Part shown: positions 1,328-17,200 of the stretch, piece by piece | Position numbering within the stretch: the stretch's first letter is position 1 | Layout of the letters: the number at the start of each line of letters is the position of its first letter | Source: Verrucomicrobium sp. BvORR034 | GTDB taxonomy: Bacteria; Verrucomicrobiota; Verrucomicrobiia; Verrucomicrobiales; Verrucomicrobiaceae | DNA length: 39,413 nucleotides | Direction of reading: 5' to 3' | Assembly (NCBI RefSeq): GCF_000739635.1 | Contig: NZ_BATQ01000054.1 | Coordinates: 1-39,413, forward strand | The notes under the pieces: generated by a model | The model's database searches: none | What the model was told of the DNA's origin: nothing | Seen by the model: only the letters and a program-made list of their open reading frames with translations | Position numbers and translations under genes: made by a program

Positions 1328-3370
1328 ATGAATTTGGAGCGGAGAGACTGGATGCGACTCACCTTGGGAGCCGCTGCGGCGACAGCAGCAGGAGCGAGGC
1401 GAATGACCTTGATGGGAGCACCGGCCAATCCGGTGGCCGTAGGAACGAACCCCATCGATCCTGGCCATCTGACGCAGGTGGTGTTTGGTTCGTACTCGCA
1501 CTGGTTGCAACCGTGGCGGGGCTACCTGGAAACGATCCCTGCCAGCCAGTTTCTTAATGGTCTGGGAATCGTGCTCAACATCCATCGGGGGGAGGATGTG
1601 AATCAGATCCTCCAGATGTGCGCCAGGCATGGCATCAAGCATGTGCGCATCGAGATCGGCTGGGGGAACCTCGACTACCGCGATGAGTCAAAGATCAAGA
1701 ACAGCAAGGATCTCAGCGTGCGATTGCAGGCCTGCCGCACCCATGGACTGCGGCCGCTCATCCTTCTGAATGGCCACCACGGTGCCCCCTGTCCTCTACT
1801 GCACTTTGAGCGCAGCCTGGCTGCCGAGGTGCCTGCCGGGGCCCGTAGCGTGGTGCTGGACGACGTGGCCGAGCTGGTGGTGGGCAAGAGCGGATTCAGC
1901 CATCCCCGCCGTTCCATTGCGGCGGAGTACCTGATCACCTCCATCGAAGGAACGACGGTCACTCTCTCCAAGCCTCTGCCGGATGCGTTTCCAGCCGGAA
2001 CCAAGTTGAAAATGGCCACGCTGAAGTACCGGCCCTTTGGAGGCCCGATCACGGATGAAGGAAAGAACACCCTCCAGGGCTGGCAGCGGTATGCGCAGAC
2101 GGTGGCGTCCTTCGTGGCGGAGGTGCTGGGGACGACGGGTGCGGATGACCGGGGATTCGACTTGGAGATCTGGAACGAGTTGTCCTTCGGCTCCAACTTC
2201 GTTCACCAGAGCCGGTACTTTGATCCCGTGCCTCAGCCGTATGAAGAGAAGAAGGTCTTTCTGGATGTGGTGCGCGCCACGGCTGAAGCCGTGACCGCCA
2301 GCCCTGACACCTTTGCCGGCGTGAGGCTGGTCAATGGCTTCTCCAATACCCTGCCCTGGCCGGCGAGCTCTGAGATGCCGAAAGAGGTGACGGCTCTGAG
2401 CCACCATCCCTATGCAGGGCGCAAAGTATTTCCTCGTGACCGGCCCAAAGGCACCAGTCTGAATGCGCAGGGTGTCAAAGATCAGAGCGGGTTCGAGCCC
2501 ATCTACGAAGCGTGTTTCCCCGAATACTTTGCCAGTGCCTTGCAAACGGAGACCATCACGCGGGACATGGCCCCACTGACCACGAAGATCTACAACACTG
2601 AGCATGGCCGCTACGCACGACCTGAGGGCGATGGGCCCTGCTGGTGCTGGATCACAGAGGTAAACTATGCTCCAGGGGAAGATGGGATCAATGATCCAGC
2701 GCATGCTCTAAAGCTGAAGGCCAAAGCCATCGCCAGGTACTTCTGTTTCTACCTCAACAAGGGAGTGGAGAGGTTGTATTTGTATGCAGCGGGAGCCAAT
2801 GATCCCGACCTGGGGGACGCGGAACTCGGCGTGTTGAAGCAGGAGTTCCTCACCCGTTCCATCAAGGAGAAGGAATACCCCGCAGCGGAGCAGGAGCTGG
2901 CGTTGACCTCGCCAGCGCTTCAAGTGGTGCAGCGTATCGCAAGCCGATTCAACGCGAAGGGTGCGGTGGACCGCGCTCTTTCTCTGGCGGGCACTCGCAA
3001 GCTAGAGCTGCTTTCCGTGGAGGACGCCCATGGTGCCATGCAGTTTGAAGGTGATCCCAATGAGATGATTGGCCGGCCTCCTCTGTACAACCGGGACGTC
3101 GTTGCCTTTCTTCCGTATCAGGTCAATGCGAGCCGGTTCGTGGTGCCCTGTTATGTCATGACCCGTGACATCCGGCAGGATCTGGGTCCGCAGCCGTATG
3201 TCCTGACCGTCAAGGGATGGCAGGTGAACGGGCTGAGGGTTTCAGGGTATGACCCCGTCTTGAATGAGCCGGTGCCGGTCAAGGTCACGGCAGGCGAGGG
3301 CAAGGTCAGGCTTGAGGTGGTCTTGCGGGACTGCCCGGTGCTGCTGGAGATTGAAGAGGGGGCTCGGTAG
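1328..3370 (+). CDS. Tat-exported glycoside-hydrolase-like TIM barrel protein
   Basis: 680 residues. The N-terminus has R5-R6-D-W-M-R-L-T-L-G followed by an alanine-rich stretch, a twin-arginine-type signal with Trp where Phe is usual. The middle looks like a clan GH-A (beta/alpha)8 glycosidase: L-D-I-type strand motifs (I-K-H-V-R-I-E-I-G-W-G), E-I-W-N-E-L with Glu284 as the candidate acid/base, and I-Y-N-T-E-H-G with Glu425 as the candidate nucleophile. The last 150 residues look like a beta-sandwich. Substrate and family number cannot be assigned from sequence alone; GH5-like or GH39-like are possible. It is a single-gene unit, followed at once by an 8 bp tandem repeat. Start chosen for the Tat signal. 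Confidence 0.8.
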   Translation: MNLERRDWMRLTLGAAAATAAGARRMTLMGAPANPVAVGTNPIDPGHLTQVVFGSYSHWLQPWRGYLETIPASQFLNGLGIVLNIHRGEDVNQILQMCARHGIKHVRIEIGWGNLDYRDESKIKNSKDLSVRLQACRTHGLRPLILLNGHHGAPCPLLHFERSLAAEVPAGARSVVLDDVAELVVGKSGFSHPRRSIAAEYLITSIEGTTVTLSKPLPDAFPAGTKLKMATLKYRPFGGPITDEGKNTLQGWQRYAQTVASFVAEVLGTTGADDRGFDLEIWNELSFGSNFVHQSRYFDPVPQPYEEKKVFLDVVRATAEAVTASPDTFAGVRLVNGFSNTLPWPASSEMPKEVTALSHHPYAGRKVFPRDRPKGTSLNAQGVKDQSGFEPIYEACFPEYFASALQTETITRDMAPLTTKIYNTEHGRYARPEGDGPCWCWITEVNYAPGEDGINDPAHALKLKAKAIARYFCFYLNKGVERLYLYAAGANDPDLGDAELGVLKQEFLTRSIKEKEYPAAEQELALTSPALQVVQRIASRFNAKGAVDRALSLAGTRKLELLSVEDAHGAMQFEGDPNEMIGRPPLYNRDVVAFLPYQVNASRFVVPCYVMTRDIRQDLGPQPYVLTVKGWQVNGLRVSGYDPVLNEPVPVKVTAGEGKVRLEVVLRDCPVLLEIEEGAR

Positions 3371-3440
3371 GTCAGTGCGTCAGTGCGTCAGTGCGTCAGT
3401 GCGTCAGTGCGTCAGTGCGTCAGTGCGTCAGTGCGTCAGT
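3371..3440. repeat. 8 bp tandem repeat (GTCAGTGC), 8.75 copies
   Basis: Bases 3371-3440 are eight perfect GTCAGTGC units plus GTCAGT, beginning on the base after the TAG stop of the preceding gene. No unit carries a substitution, as expected of a recently expanded or length-variable locus. One and a half units of the same motif occur after the stop of the adaptor gene near 439-450. Confidence 0.95.
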
Positions 3441-3580
3441 TGGGGTTCGAGGTGTAAACCTGGGGCGATGCAGATGCTTGCTTGTAGTTCAAACTTTAGT
3501 TTGCCCGGGCGATCTTTGGTGACGTGTCCTGAGCAAACTAAAGTTTGAACTACAAGCAGCTGCCTTTGCTGGAAGCTGTA
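3427..3580. repeat. Dispersed intergenic repeat, long copy
   Basis: This is the long counterpart of 438-527. Shared blocks are the end of the GTCAGTGC run, GGGGTTCGAGGTGTAAAC, GATGCAGATG, and, after 67 extra bases (3477-3543), TTTGAACTACAAGCAGC followed by a TTTGCT-loop hairpin ending at 3580. The final 37 bases differ from the short copy at one position. The gap 3371-3694 contains this element, the tandem repeat and a terminator, but no gene. Confidence 0.8.
3479..3558. repeat. Inverted pair of REP-like hairpins (BIME-like)
   Basis: Two perfect 26 bp arms, 3479-3504 and 3533-3558, flank a 28 bp spacer. Each arm is itself a hairpin: GTAG (3484-3487 on plus) followed by CAAACT-TT-AGTTTG, and the mirror image ending CTAC at 3550-3553. 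A GTAG tetranucleotide at the foot of a small palindrome, in head-to-head pairs, is the known layout of REP sequences mobilised by RAYT (Y1-type) transposases. No RAYT gene is in the window. Confidence 0.8.
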
Positions 3581-4408: not shown

Positions 4409-5050
4409 TCAGTCGTTCAAAACCAGGCGCAGCTCGCCATTCTTAAGTTGGAAATCTTTGATGCCTGCGGCGAAACTTTTAAAAAATTGCGCGTCGCCTT
4501 CACCCATCTTGTTGTGGTCCAATAGATTAAGGCCCTTCATGTTCCCGAGCCAGTCATTAGGCAGGGAGATTCCGCCCACGCTGATATCTGCCAAACTCAA
4601 GGCAAGTTGGCGGTTGGCATCCAGCTGGGTGTTGAACGCCACCTTGACCCGTACGGTGCTGCCTCCCATCACGGGAAAGTCTTTGTCCACAGGGATCAGA
4701 AACTGGGCACCGATGTTGCCGTTGTTGATGCTGACCTTGATCTGGTCTCCCAAACCTTGCTGCTGCAGGTAACCGTTGATCTCACGCTCATTGAGAACCA
4801 GCGTTTTGGCCGGATCCGTGGGCTGGACCTGATTCTCCAGCGTGGCCAGCTTGGTCTGCACCGCTTCCTGTTCTGCAGCTGTCAATTGCACTGGCCGGAA
4901 GGGGGATGCGTTCAGATTGTACTGGTACCACCAAGCGCCTAGGCCAACGAGCACACAGCCCGTCACGAGGAGCCGCTTGGTCCAGGTAAAGCGACGACGG
5001 AGCACGGGCGGATTCGCGGGAGCCGCCACCGAAGCAGGGGATTCGTTCAT
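4409..5050 (-). CDS. Membrane-anchored hypothetical protein
   Basis: 213 residues from the ATG at 5050; a GTG six codons upstream is possible. Residues 1-20 are a Pro/Ala-rich cytoplasmic tail, then R-R-R-F-T-W-T-K-R precedes one membrane span (L-L-V-T-G-C-V-L-V-G-L-G-A-W-W), giving an N-in, C-out anchor. The outside domain has a helical first part with L-N-E-R-E-I-N-G-Y-L-Q-Q, followed by beta-rich sequence with N-N-G-N-I-G-A-Q and conserved-looking aliphatic strands. I do not recognise the family. No catalytic motif is visible. It is monocistronic, with a structured 228 bp element upstream in its promoter region. Confidence 0.75.
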   Translation of the reverse strand: MNESPASVAAPANPPVLRRRFTWTKRLLVTGCVLVGLGAWWYQYNLNASPFRPVQLTAAEQEAVQTKLATLENQVQPTDPAKTLVLNEREINGYLQQQGLGDQIKVSINNGNIGAQFLIPVDKDFPVMGGSTVRVKVAFNTQLDANRQLALSLADISVGGISLPNDWLGNMKGLNLLDHNKMGEGDAQFFKSFAAGIKDFQLKNGELRLVLND

Positions 5051-5155
5051 GGTTGTCAGGGGTTGCACTGTCGAATGCGATAGACAGGGTGGGGGGGCGC
5101 GTGTTGAAAAAAATTACATATGGACACCAGCCTGCCAGACGTCAGACATCAGATT

Positions 5156-5383
5156 TGAGCTCAAGCGCGGCTGAGCACGCTCAGCGAAGCGGTCGTCAGA
5201 AGGAGGGGGATGTTCTTTTCCCGGTCGGGGGCGAAAGTCCCATGAGGTCTCTTCTGCCGCCCATTGCCAGGTGACATGAAGAGCGAGGGCAATCCCCAGG
5301 GGACGTTGGACTGAGCGGGGCTGGGAACCCGCCTTCTTAATCCTGGCCGCCCCGCTGCGCGTGCTCAGCCGCGCGTGAGCTCA
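5156..5383. other. Long-stem structured element (ncRNA or MITE-like), unassigned
   Basis: The ends 5156-5180 and 5359-5383 are complementary at 24 of 25 positions. Pairing resumes inside: 5182-5186 with 5353-5357, 5189-5194 with 5345-5350 (one G-T), and 5199-5207 with 5328-5336 (8 of 9). The interior holds a hairpin at 5228-5241 with a GAAA loop on the plus strand, and a 6 bp stem 5263-5268/5288-5293. The whole therefore folds as a long rod with internal branches. It could be a structured RNA of about 228 nt or a small inverted-repeat element; no target-site duplication is visible. The gap 5051-5432 holds no convincing gene. Confidence 0.7.
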
Positions 5384-5417
5384 GGTCTTCTGTCTAGAGT
5401 CTTCCAGGCTTGCGTCT

Positions 5418-5436
5418 GCCGCGCAGCGGCTCCTAC
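5418..5436 (-). repeat. REP-like hairpin abutting the ubiA-family stop codon
   Basis: On the minus strand GTAG (5436-5433) is followed by GAG-type spacer bases and a perfect 5 bp stem with a 3-base loop (5418-5430, GCCGC-TGC-GCGGC). The TAG of the GTAG is the stop codon of the prenyltransferase gene. It may act as a transcript end or 3' stabiliser. Confidence 0.55.
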
Positions 5437-6398
5437 CACTGCAACGGCCCCAATAGGTGCGCAGCCTTGGCATAGTTGCTTTTGGCAAGCAAAAGGGCGA
5501 TCGTGGCGGCACCCGTGACGATGGTCCAGAAGGCGATCCAGGGGTTTTTGAGGAGTTGCTCCGGCTCCAAGCGGGCCGTTTCCTCCTTCATCGCGTGGTG
5601 GAAGTAGGCGATCACCGCGATGACGATCATGGGGAACACAAAAACAAGGTTGTTCAGGCGGGGATAGACCGCCATGGCGATCCCTGTGCAGAAGCAGAAG
5701 AGATTCGCATACGTGATCATCGCCAGAACGAGGCTCTTCTCGGTATAGACCTGGAAGGACTTGCGGTAGCGTCCGCTCACGGAGACATCGCCAATGAAGC
5801 GGAACTCAGAGTAGCGCTTCCCGGTCATGAGCAGGGCACCGAAGAACCACCAGGCCAGCACGATGGAGAGCGGGGGCACCTGGTTGGGTTGCACCAGGGC
5901 GTAGTAGCCGAGCCAGAGCCGGATCGGGTTGTTAAACGATTCCGCGATCACGTCCATGAAGGCGCGATCCTTCAGGCGGATGGGTGGCACATTGTACACC
6001 AGACCGCTCAGCAGCAGCAGGCCGAGGGCGGCCTGGTAACCCCAGTTGAACTTGAAGAGGGCGCAGAGGGCGAATGCCCCGACAATGAGTCCCACCATGA
6101 GCCACCAGAGATAGGGCACCTTCACCTTGCCGGCGGGAATGCCGCGGAGCCGCTTCGTGGGGTGGACGGCGTCGAATGGAGCGTCCAGGATCTCGTTGAG
6201 AATGTAGTTGGCCGAGGCCACCAGGCAGGCCGGGATCAGTGAGAGCAGGGCGGTGATGACCAAGCCGCCGTCCAAGCGGAAATCGAGCACCAAGGCCCAG
6301 GCCACGACATGGCCGAAGAGGATGAAGATGTTCTTCAACCAATGGTCCGGGCGGCAGATTTTCAGGTATTCGATCACGGGGGCGGTTTTGTTAGCCAC
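5433..6398 (-). CDS. UbiA-family prenyltransferase (decaprenyl-phosphate phosphoribosyltransferase-like)
   Basis: 321 residues, GTG start. An integral membrane protein with about eight or nine spans. The N-terminal R-P-D-H-W-L-K-N-I-F-I is the style of DPPR synthases (5-phosphoribosyl-1-diphosphate:polyprenyl-phosphate transferases). The first Asp-rich motif is N68-E-I-L-D72-A-P-F-D76 followed by H-P-T-K-R; the second region is Y-N-V-P-P-I-R-L-K-D with D-V-I-A-E-S. These residues bind Mg2+ and the diphosphate in the family. The likely role is making a lipid-linked sugar donor for envelope polysaccharide; the substrate is inferred from resemblance only. No arabinan genes are adjacent. It is divergent from the gene at 6568 across about 170 bases. 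Confidence 0.85.
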   Translation of the reverse strand: MANKTAPVIEYLKICRPDHWLKNIFILFGHVVAWALVLDFRLDGGLVITALLSLIPACLVASANYILNEILDAPFDAVHPTKRLRGIPAGKVKVPYLWWLMVGLIVGAFALCALFKFNWGYQAALGLLLLSGLVYNVPPIRLKDRAFMDVIAESFNNPIRLWLGYYALVQPNQVPPLSIVLAWWFFGALLMTGKRYSEFRFIGDVSVSGRYRKSFQVYTEKSLVLAMITYANLFCFCTGIAMAVYPRLNNLVFVFPMIVIAVIAYFHHAMKEETARLEPEQLLKNPWIAFWTIVTGAATIALLLAKSNYAKAAHLLGPLQW

Positions 6399-14214: not shown

Positions 14215-17200
14215 CTATTGTGCCGGTGGTGTAACTTCTCGAACCTGGGCACCGTTGGACTCGGTGAGCACCAGGATGGAGAGTTTCTCCACGGCATTCA
14301 GTTCGGTGGGCTTCAGCATCTGGTGATCCAGTCCATTGCCGGAAGCTCCGGCGGGACGGGGAAGGGGCACGGGCGGCGGTACGGGCTGGCCTTCGCTGGT
14401 GCCGTTCAGGCTCGCGTAGTCGAATCTGCCGCGCAGGTCGGTATAGCCGTCTTTGAAGAACCGCACCGTGCCGTTCCGGAGTCGGGCATACACTTTCACA
14501 TAGCCCTTGGCGATAGGTTTGTCCGTGCCGTTGTCGCGTACCTCAAGCCGCCCGTAATTCTCTGTTACGGCAAGCTTGAGGGTGTTGGCGTGGTAGGCCT
14601 GGGTCTTGCGCTGCCCGGCACCCAGTATCTCCACCAGGAGGTTCGCACGCGAGTAGGCCTCCGGCAGCGGGATGCTCAGGGTGTCCTTGCCTTGAGGCAA
14701 TGTCACGCTGACGGTCTGGTTCGGTTTGATCACGCTGAACCGGCTGGCATCCTCGCTCACGAAGGGGTTGCTGCTGAAACTGAACTCGGGATCGGTCAGG
14801 TAGTAGTTCACCGTCACTTGAGGCAGATTCCGCCAGTTGAGCGCGATGGCACGGTTTTCAACCTTGAACTCGAAGGTGGGTTCGGTGGCGGAGAGTTCGC
14901 CCTGCTGGCGTTCACGATCCGGTTGAGCGGGTGAGCCTTCAGGAGAGGTCGCGGGGGCTTTGCCATCGGTTTCATCCACTTGGGACAGCACCTCTCCAAA
15001 GAGTTGCTTCCACCGGGGTACGGGATAGTCCCGGTAAGTGGTGGCCACGGTGCGTGCAGTGGCCGTATCGCCTTCATAAAAGGCAGCCTGGCAGCGCAGG
15101 TAGTCGTGTTGAATGCGCGTGGTCAGATCCTGGGCGGGGATGGCCTTGAGTCTTCCCAGTGCCTCCTCCACCCGGTCCTGAAGGAAGAGGTAATAAGCCA
15201 CGGCCAGATTGTCCGTACTCCCAAGTGTGGGTTTGAAGGACAGAGTGGCCAGAAGACTCTGGTACTGCGCCAGCACTTCCTGGTTGGCGATCCGCCATTC
15301 CCTGCCCAGCCGGTGGGCTCTCTGGTTGATCAGCGGGCTGTACTCCAGGTGTTCGTAGAGATCGAATTCCAGAGGTTCAAACTTCACGAGAGGGGAGTCC
15401 AGAACCGGTCCGAACTCTTCTGAATACTGGTGCTTGAGCCACTCTCCGAGGGTGACCTTGTCATTGTGATACACAGCGTAGCTGGTCAGGGTGTCATCCC
15501 AGACATGGCGTTCCGCCAGCACCTTAATGATCTGACGATAGAAGTCGGGGCTTTGACGGCAGCGCCAGGCGATGCGGCCGAGGTCCGTACGCTGGATGTT
15601 GTTCTGTTCCAGATAGGCAAACACCTCCGCCTCCGTGGCATACTGGGAGACATAGTCCCAGGACGCCTTGTCCACGCCGGACAGTTGGTTGACGACGTTG
15701 AAGGCAAAGACCGGGGCCTTGCCGGCCTCCTTGCCTCCCGTCGCCACATGCACAGGGTAGTGGGCGAATTTCCCGCCCGCCTTGGCAGGTGTTCCTGGGA
15801 AGTAGAAGTAGTACTCCCGCGTGGTGGTGGTGTAAGGCTCCAGCGGCAGGCGCAGTGACTGCGTGGCCTTGCTCCCGCGAACCGGCAGGGCACCCTGGGG
15901 GATCTGCAGCAGAATCTCCGCCTTGATCCGGGTGCTGGTGGCATTGGTCACCACGATGTTGGCTCCATAAACCGTGCCGGTCAGGAACTCATCCGTGACA
16001 TTCTTCTGGAACGCTTCATTGCCTTCCTGGCGGAAGCGGTCATCGGCGCGGAAGAACGACTGTGAGACCAACAGTTGGCCGGCCGCCTGGTCGTTGGCAG
16101 CGGGTGCGGGGCGGATCTGCTTGTGAAACACCAGCACCGGGGCTCCGGCGGTGAGTTCAAAGCGGCGGCCTTCCGTTTTCGTCGCATGCTGGGGGGCTTC
16201 AAAGGGCAGGTCCAGCACTGCGAGAGCCAGGAGGATCTCAGTGAAGCTGTGGCTGGCCTCTGCAACGTGTGGAGAGACGAAGGGGCCTTTGGACCCTTCT
16301 GCAATCCAGGCCGCAAAGTCCCGCCAAAAGGCATTTACCGTGATCAGGCTGGCGTTTTGATCAACCTGGCGGAGTTTGTAGTAGTTGTTCTCCGCCCACT
16401 CTCTGGCAGGTCCTAGTTCGCGGAAATAGGACCGCACCAGCTGGCGGGCCTCTACTTGCAGGGCGACTCCGGCATAGGCGTACTGGCCGTCGAAGTCTGC
16501 CGTCAGTTCCATGGGCTTGCCTTGGGCGACCTTCATTTCGCGGCCTGCCTGCTCCTTTTGTTTCTCTGCCACATCGCCCAGTGCCAGCTCTTCACCGGCA
16601 GAGTCTTTCTTGCCTGCTACGGAGAGGCCGCGTGCCGCAGGCCGGCTGATGGGCGGCGTGGAGGGGTCCGCTATGCCGGAGAGACGTCCAGTACCACTGC
16701 TGAACATATCGGCGGGGGCGGCTGCAGCTGCGGTAGTTGGGGTCGGGGCCGGTGCGGGGGCCTCTACTGCAAGAGGGATGGACTTGCTGGATTCGGTGTC
16801 AGCCCACAAGGACTTGTCAGTGCCATCAAGTGAGCGTCCTCTTAGGGCCGTCTCGAAGTACCTGTCCTGTCCTTCAGGATCAAGGGGGAGCAGTTCCCAG
16901 GACTCCCGCAGATGGCGGGCGGCCCGGGATGCCTCTCCTGGAAGCCGTTGGGCCAGCAGAGCGCGCTCCACCACGTTGAGCCGGGCGTAGTGCCAGGGTT
17001 CGAGGTAGCGATCCAGCCTGGCGTCGAGAAGGAACTCATCCATGAAGGTCTTGTCCTTCTTGTTGGCAAGGTAGGGCTTGACCACGTTGGTGAAGAATAC
17101 CGGATCCTTCTTTGCCAGGAACAGGTGCAGTTCATGGCTGGCGTACTCACCATACTTGGCGCGCTTTTCTGCGTCGCTGTACTTGGGCCACTGCAGGATC

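Follow-up and report, generated by a model that had tools for sequence, protein, structure and literature searches.

Positions 5156 to 5383 of the window, by which we mean the whole 39,413-nt stretch of Verrucomicrobium DNA analysed here, raise the question of whether this intergenic sequence is a folded RNA, a mobile element, or something put together from smaller parts. The outer stem described in a sequence-only reading is real: 24 of its 25 pairs, 5156-5180 with 5359-5383, are Watson-Crick, and over 50 bases per side of the 228-bp stretch, aligned without gaps, 38/50 are Watson-Crick with four further G-T pairs. Base composition predicts about 2.5e-6 such 25-base arms, up to 400 nt apart, in the window, so the stem is not a product of chance. 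On either strand, the predicted fold of 5140-5400 is better than that of any of 200 dinucleotide shuffles (z -7.8 on one strand, -7.7 on the other). The GAAA-capped hairpin at 5228-5241 was also found as described, as GGGGCGAAAGTCCC with a single G-T pair. The two flanking genes run on the minus strand, so this GNRA hairpin is antisense to them, and the loop of the sense strand would read UUUC.

The boundaries given for the 228 bp did not hold, since both 5156 and 5383 are internal to a larger inverted repeat. This repeat, 5123-5192 / 5347-5416 (70 nt, 79%), contains the stem as its inner part and is the longest of ten inverted repeats in the window, as scanned with arms of at least 18 nt and a separation of up to 600 nt. 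Another inverted repeat of the window, at 3479-3558 (31 nt, 94%, 18 nt apart), has similar sequence at L030:4544 and in L030:10161-10494.

The full 228 bp is single copy in the 8.58-Mb genome. Leaving arm-to-arm matches aside, parts of it match at 19 further places (77 candidates, of which 40 were scored), and these piecewise matches sort into three groups. Because the pieces recur separately elsewhere in the genome and the whole does not, we regard the stretch as a mosaic of dispersed repeats. A single 228-bp unit is ruled out, as its ends lie inside the larger inverted repeat and its modules occur apart. The suggestion of a non-autonomous mobile element is supported in kind, the modules being dispersed repeats, though the combination at full length is single copy. 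Viewing the stretch as one element upstream of the gene at 4409 also missed the right arm, which adjoins the stop codon of the gene at 5433-6398.

The window element (5123-5430, about 310 bp) in the Verrucomicrobium genome is probably an intergenic repeat of composite build, REP/BIME-like in kind. Two inward-facing copies of one repeat, A, enclose two different REP-like repeats, B and C. The order is A+, B+, C-, A-, and each module is a dispersed repeat (Table 1).

Table 1 Features of the composite repeat and of its neighbouring genes in the window
Feature	Position	Strand	Description	Basis
Module A, left arm	5123-5161	+	array of ~7-nt AGAC-type units, ends TTGAG, without hairpin	nhmmer; cmsearch at same place (L098:1188-1224)
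Left link, A to B	5162-5205	+	first part pairs with right link as near-perfect inner stem	direct reading, pairing
Module B, REP-like	5206-5248	+	contains GAAA hairpin 5228-5241	nhmmer
B-C spacer	5249-5300	no strand	partly common to sister genome G002	alignment
Module C, REP-like	5301-5342	-		nhmmer
Right link	5343-5377	-	pairs with left link in closing stem	inverted-repeat scan, pairing
Module A, right arm, complete	5378-5430	-	hairpin and AGAC array ending CTGAG	covariance-model match 5380-5430, E 1.5e-15 (copy is among the 27 sequences used to build the model)
Module A hairpin, 13 nt, GCCGC-TGC-GCGGC	5418-5430	-	starts 2 nt past neighbour gene's stop	direct reading, ortholog comparison
UbiA-family prenyltransferase gene	5433-6398	-	stop codon 5433-5435 adjoins element	Pfam PF01040, 7.8e-17
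Next minus-strand gene	4409-5068	-		no Pfam/NCBIfam match at E<=0.001

Profiles of the three modules matched A 39 times, B nine times and C 18 times in a first set of loci, from which six overlapping loci were left out, and A 31 times, B six times and C four times in 1.117 Mb of sampled genome, the window copies of B and C included in both counts. By eye, with L017, the Y1 loci and the six overlapping loci omitted, B and C copies mostly consist of GGAG and a hairpin. Other B copies have AAAGGAG plus a GGGACATTCTTGTCCC-type hairpin, which is decayed in the window copy, and other C copies have AAAGGAG plus a hairpin of the GCGGGG-TTCCCAG-CCCCGC type. B and C thus look like REPs, which is a matter of resemblance only. 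The repeat landscape is somewhat unusual, and the window element is an ordinary example of it.

Module A consists of a 5-bp hairpin with a 3-nt loop, followed by an AGAC array of mostly 7-nt units that ends in YTGAG. Its covariance model has 51 positions, 13 of which are the palindrome. With 150 first-look candidates scored per genome, we found at least 152 matches in the window's genome, at least 147 in G002, which is listed in the same genus, and at least 151 in a second sister genome, G003. Further matches occur in G001 (1), G006 (10), G008 (14), G009 (28), G012 (4) and G013 (6); none was reported in 29 of the 38 genomes searched. We saw no description of the A family in the open-access literature that we searched, nor any paper there combining Verrucomicrobium and repetitive extragenic palindromes. 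The following counts use 95 A copies, made up of 31 from the 1.117 Mb, 49 from 40 stretches chosen from the covariance-model list, and 15 from 15 loci reached through B or C. The 31 are not an unbiased sample: two are in the window; 15 come from 280 kb of stretches on contigs known through matches to the element, and three such matches fall within these stretches; 14 come from 797 kb on contigs chosen by their Y1 genes. Five of the 31 share more than 15 nt with the end of a called gene and 26 do not, as is expected of an extragenic repeat.

Comparison with the two sister species at the same locus bears on the nature of the stem. The neighbouring UbiA-family gene is 97% identical in G002 and 98% in G003, and the same two genes are separated by 403 nt here, 276 nt in G003 and 895 nt in G002. 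A arms are present in all three species; B and C are present here and in G002 only, and the interior is otherwise different, with 684 nt between the arms in G002 and 92 nt in G003. Of the 25 closing pairs, 24 form here, 16 plus one G-T in G002, and nine in G003, so that the pairing is not conserved in the two homologues compared.

These observations weigh against an undescribed structured RNA of about 228 nt, riboswitch-like or trans-acting, which had been one of the two explanations put forward. A fold better than that of every shuffle is what such an RNA would show, and G002 does retain part of the stem; inverted repeats, however, give a good fold by themselves, the stem is largely lost in G003, and the interior is replaced in G003 and much longer in G002. 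Other A pairs are without such a stem. We folded 11 B copies (the window's, nine others of its genome and one of G002), and a GAAA loop forms in 0/10 of the others, which removes this hairpin as a conserved feature. Rfam has no match to the 228-bp stretch either at gathering thresholds or at E<=5, ruling out a known RNA family, and no sigma-70-like promoter was found in 5030-5460. The structured-RNA reading is already largely contradicted, and we consider it highly improbable.

A second RNA-level explanation starts from the strong hairpins between two co-directional genes of the minus strand: the element would then terminate or attenuate transcription between them. Behind the right-arm hairpin, however, the minus strand continues into the AGAC array instead of a U-run, and a terminator scan of 5030-5460 found a single site, which is on the plus strand (shuffles gave 0.4); the minus strand had none. 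A terminator is thus a distinctly unlikely explanation.

The composite-repeat reading leaves the near-perfect closing stem to be accounted for. The inner 25 bases of the two A arms have an identity of 0.92 here. The next best value is 0.68 among 14 pairings, which reuse some arms and cover fewer than the 16 known pairs because weak or cut arms were left out, and 0/1500 random pairs reached as high as the window locus. Over all pairings, the inner 25 nt of partner arms average 0.55 against 0.48 for random arms, with 3/5000 draws as high, window locus included. We also considered a general homogenisation of partner A arrays and rejected it, as the pairs are no more alike than random ones (3128/5000 draws as high). 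Between the two A arrays of this one locus, identity is 37/39 in G003, 33/38 in G002 and 28/39 here. Compared with the left inner 40 nt here, the right arm of G002 agrees at 32/40 positions, the positional counterpart in G002 at 24/43, and the right arm of the window locus itself at 31/40. Copying between inverted arms would explain both the quality of the stem here and the likeness of the left arm to the right arm of G002. The near-perfect stem probably arose by such copying at this one locus, through template switching or conversion, and the interior probably accumulated as sequences were inserted, lost and copied locally between inverted repeats. In a comparison of three species without an outgroup, the closing stem appears to be a local copying product rather than a conserved RNA fold.

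To place the locus among others, 36 intergenic regions of the window's genome were taken and 47 sister counterparts recovered. Six regions have A in at least one species, five of them with A here. Four of these five keep A in every recovered sister (two with one sister only) and one in neither, which argues for inheritance and not recent movement. In the sixth region the arms are above threshold only in G002; there is a weak match here (14.7 bits), and a decayed array is readable by eye in both other species. None of the regions compared across the three species offered a clean empty site with a target duplication. A is mostly inherited, and the interior turns over. Several other stretches seen in these comparisons are recorded here as observations in their own right. 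At L041:7634-8002 (C194), synteny with G003 is interrupted inside an A...A' stretch, its left part being found at 8.06 Mb (minus strand) and its right part at 0.14 Mb (plus strand). The sequences at L030:15736-16015 and 16131-16386 are 250-280-nt repeats that match G002 and G003 at many places; at many of these places the match runs in both orientations, and the repeats are therefore palindromic. At L030:17251-17673, A lies behind a stop codon here, and both sisters have at that place a purine-rich array of ~7-nt units (AGTNAAA, by eye).

The inward-facing arrangement of A invites a further explanation, in which an A...A' pair is a transposable unit, a MITE, with A as its terminal inverted repeats and the other repeats gained inside. 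Like MITEs, the window element is non-coding and has terminal inverted repeats (70 nt, 79%), and the bias to inward-facing pairs is strong: 32/95 A copies have a convergent partner within 1 kb, two have only a divergent and six only a tandem neighbour. Outside the genus, four out of five genera also have close inward pairs, 15 in all, which account for 30 of the 62 listed matches, and one region has arms at threshold in G002 and not in the other two species. Against this, 55/95 copies have no such neighbour, so that, unlike in MITEs, more than half are without a partner; the 16 inward pairs vary in span from 132 to 780 bp; the G002-only region has its weak match here and its decayed arrays in both other species; and no target duplication was found in the regions compared. 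G012 has no close inward pair among the matches listed. We hold a transposable unit to be possible, though doubtful.

No mover was identified for A, B or C. The window's genome has 15 matches to Y1 transposases, six of them at E below 1e-18, and Y1 genes related to one of these, C31, have inverted flanks in 54/93 loci (E<1e-5), some genes being counted twice, from two collections. C31 scores above the cut-off of the NCBIfam IS200 model (74.1 bits against 55) and below that of the REP-transposase model (23.3 against 80). It is flanked by A on both sides here and in G003, where the protein is 97% identical, hence one observation, and not in G002. A as the proper end of a C31 transposase unit was rejected, as the G002 orthologue is without A flanks. 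The likeliest past movers would be the single-strand (HUH/Y1) transposases of the window's genome. L225 (G002:C144) has a long tandem run of GGTGCGTC / GTGGAGGC-like units upstream of its Y1 transposase gene.

The placement of A relative to genes has one polarity. With gene ends taken from our own dicodon gene caller, without annotation, a same-strand stop codon ends 0-9 nt before the A hairpin in 28/95 copies, which includes every preceding stop, and lies inside A in 18/95. In the remaining 49/95, the interval between 15 nt ahead of the hairpin and 55 nt past its start contains no same-strand stop. The mirror case, an opposite-strand stop within 15 nt of the other A end or inside it, was found in 0/95 copies, and an opposite-strand start within 15 nt before A in 2/95. 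In the 1.117-Mb sample the stop precedes the hairpin in 9/31 copies, compared with 3.7% of random intergenic positions (binomial 1.2e-6), and lies inside A in 6/31; on the contigs chosen by Y1 genes alone the effect is weaker, with 3/14 before the hairpin and 3/14 inside. Where the stop is inside, A itself appears to supply the codon at which the gene ends, as would happen after insertion at a gene end. Other tandem arrays also occur behind genes. Eight tandem copies of the 8-mer GTCAGTGC at 3371-3434 of the window directly follow a stop ending at 3370, the same unit is found behind stops at C157:19902 and C63:33144, and arrays of lag 7 or 8 are present in 15/384 gene 3' flanks, against 3/432 5' flanks at lag 7 and none at lag 8.

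Covariation was looked for in the closing stem, as the sequence-only reading had proposed; the stem decays in the sisters, and the covariation lies instead in the 13-nt hairpin at 5418-5430, outside the 228 bp. Among 27 A copies, four of the five hairpin pairs changed on both sides, a value that 0/500 shuffles reached, although it rests on 5/134 cells; the 27 were hand-picked from 49 for their standard layout, which favours pairing. Further pair types in the same test were equalled by 12/500 shuffles. In the larger set the hairpin is found in 74/95 copies, with 31 distinct sequences of which a few were plainly misplaced by the script, and is missing in 21/95; this count demands at least four pairs, and its own shuffle control is therefore biased. 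The orthologous hairpins of the window locus are GCCGC-TGC-GCGGC here, GCGGC-TTC-GCCGC in G003 and GCCGC-TAC-GCGGC in G002. The 5-bp hairpin is thus kept in most A copies, with a sequence that changes pair by pair. The links joining A to B or C also seemed by eye to share a conserved hairpin, an idea that was dropped (a stem of at least six in 11/28 links, compared with 7.7 in mononucleotide shuffles).

The position of A together with its covarying hairpin suggests function rather than mere passengers. Any role for the cell would most likely be exerted by the hairpin, which follows the UbiA-family stop codon after 2 nt and would be part of the 3' end region of that mRNA. There, A might affect translation termination, 3'-end decay or transcription termination. 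This possible role is modelled on the stop-proximal REPs of E. coli, reported to lower translation when they lie within 15 nt of a stop codon (PMC12306157, citing earlier work). A would then be a working gene-end signal, an mRNA 3' hairpin behind the stop followed by the unstructured AGAC array as a candidate protein target. The one-polarity placement behind stops agrees with it, as do the paired changes that keep the hairpin, also between orthologues at the window locus, and the sites that are mostly common to sister species. In other genera of the family, long same-strand frames stop nearby at 13/30 A-like loci compared with 12% of random positions, the 30 including both arms of some pairs and the random positions being drawn from the same loci. 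On the other side stand the 49/95 copies without a same-strand stop, and the hairpin missing in 21/95 copies and in 25/30 loci of the other genera, where it is found in five. A occurs in 3/19 UbiA-family loci, all of this genus, whose fourth locus, L101, is without it. Start codons are not favoured, either. Long opposite-strand frames start at A in 13/30 loci compared with 34% of random positions, and a start-codon preference of the A-like arrays in other genera was rejected on this result. We lowered our estimate slightly because of this random-position control, and put the gene-end signal forward as a tentative possibility.

A wider form of the gene-end reading would hold for the Verrucomicrobiaceae as a whole: a hairpin and AGAC array behind stops, read as RNA by a putative factor that closes the message, the window being one such gene end overgrown by REP-like repeats. 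We consider this family-wide form unlikely, and somewhat more so than before, since the control did not support its mirror-image part at start codons. Separately, in one locus of another genus, L276 (G008:C9), an AGAC/GTCT pair fills the whole stop-to-start spacer between two genes that we read, without a family search, as gcvH and gcvP.

Cyanobacterial STRRs are short tandem units of about 7 nt at gene boundaries. A differs from them in being about 50 nt long, with a hairpin at one end, and in lying behind stops. The Beggiatoaceae heptanucleotide direct repeats, e.g. TAACTGA, are likewise tandem units of about 7 nt at gene boundaries; they stand before start codons (PMC4679880), whereas A stands behind stops and has its hairpin at one end of ~50 nt. 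TIRtrons and TIR repeats comprise tyrosine transposase genes with long terminal inverted repeats plus families of such repeats (PMC3733652). Like them, the C31-related Y1 genes carry inverted flanks and C31 itself is flanked by A; unlike them, the association of A with C31 is absent from the G002 orthologue.

The nearest known kind is that of the REPs and BIMEs, short dispersed extragenic palindromes, often in opposite orientation and mostly downstream of genes (PMC3733652, PMC12306157). By the definition quoted in the latter, a REP is extragenic and palindromic with a shared consensus, 14-40 nt in E. coli (PMC12306157). A is extragenic, has its hairpin in 74/95 copies and occurs at least 152 times, but at 51 positions it is longer than 14-40 nt, and it is a small hairpin with an AGAC array rather than a 20-40 bp palindrome. 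A GTAG tag, as in GTAG-tagged REPs, stands within 8 nt before the hairpin in only 6/74 A copies, some of which owe their TAG to the gene's own stop, and B and C mostly have GGAG. Since A fails the length and GTAG tests, we file it as REP-like, not as a REP. As in BIMEs and REPINs, units of opposite orientation lie close together in the window, A+ with A- and B+ with C-; inverted units of the same family, however, describe A only, as B and C are different families. The window locus also differs from REP/RAYT systems in mixing different repeat families, and no transposase of its own was found.

With these results a candidate RNA gene is removed, and in its place stands a repeat family that numbers about 150 or more in every one of three Verrucomicrobium genomes. 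A good share of its copies begin no more than 9 nt from a stop codon and bear a hairpin that varies by compensating changes. It is this placement at stop codons that deserves to be followed, and A offers a testable start for asking whether stop-proximal repeats may act on translation or mRNA decay outside the enterobacteria.
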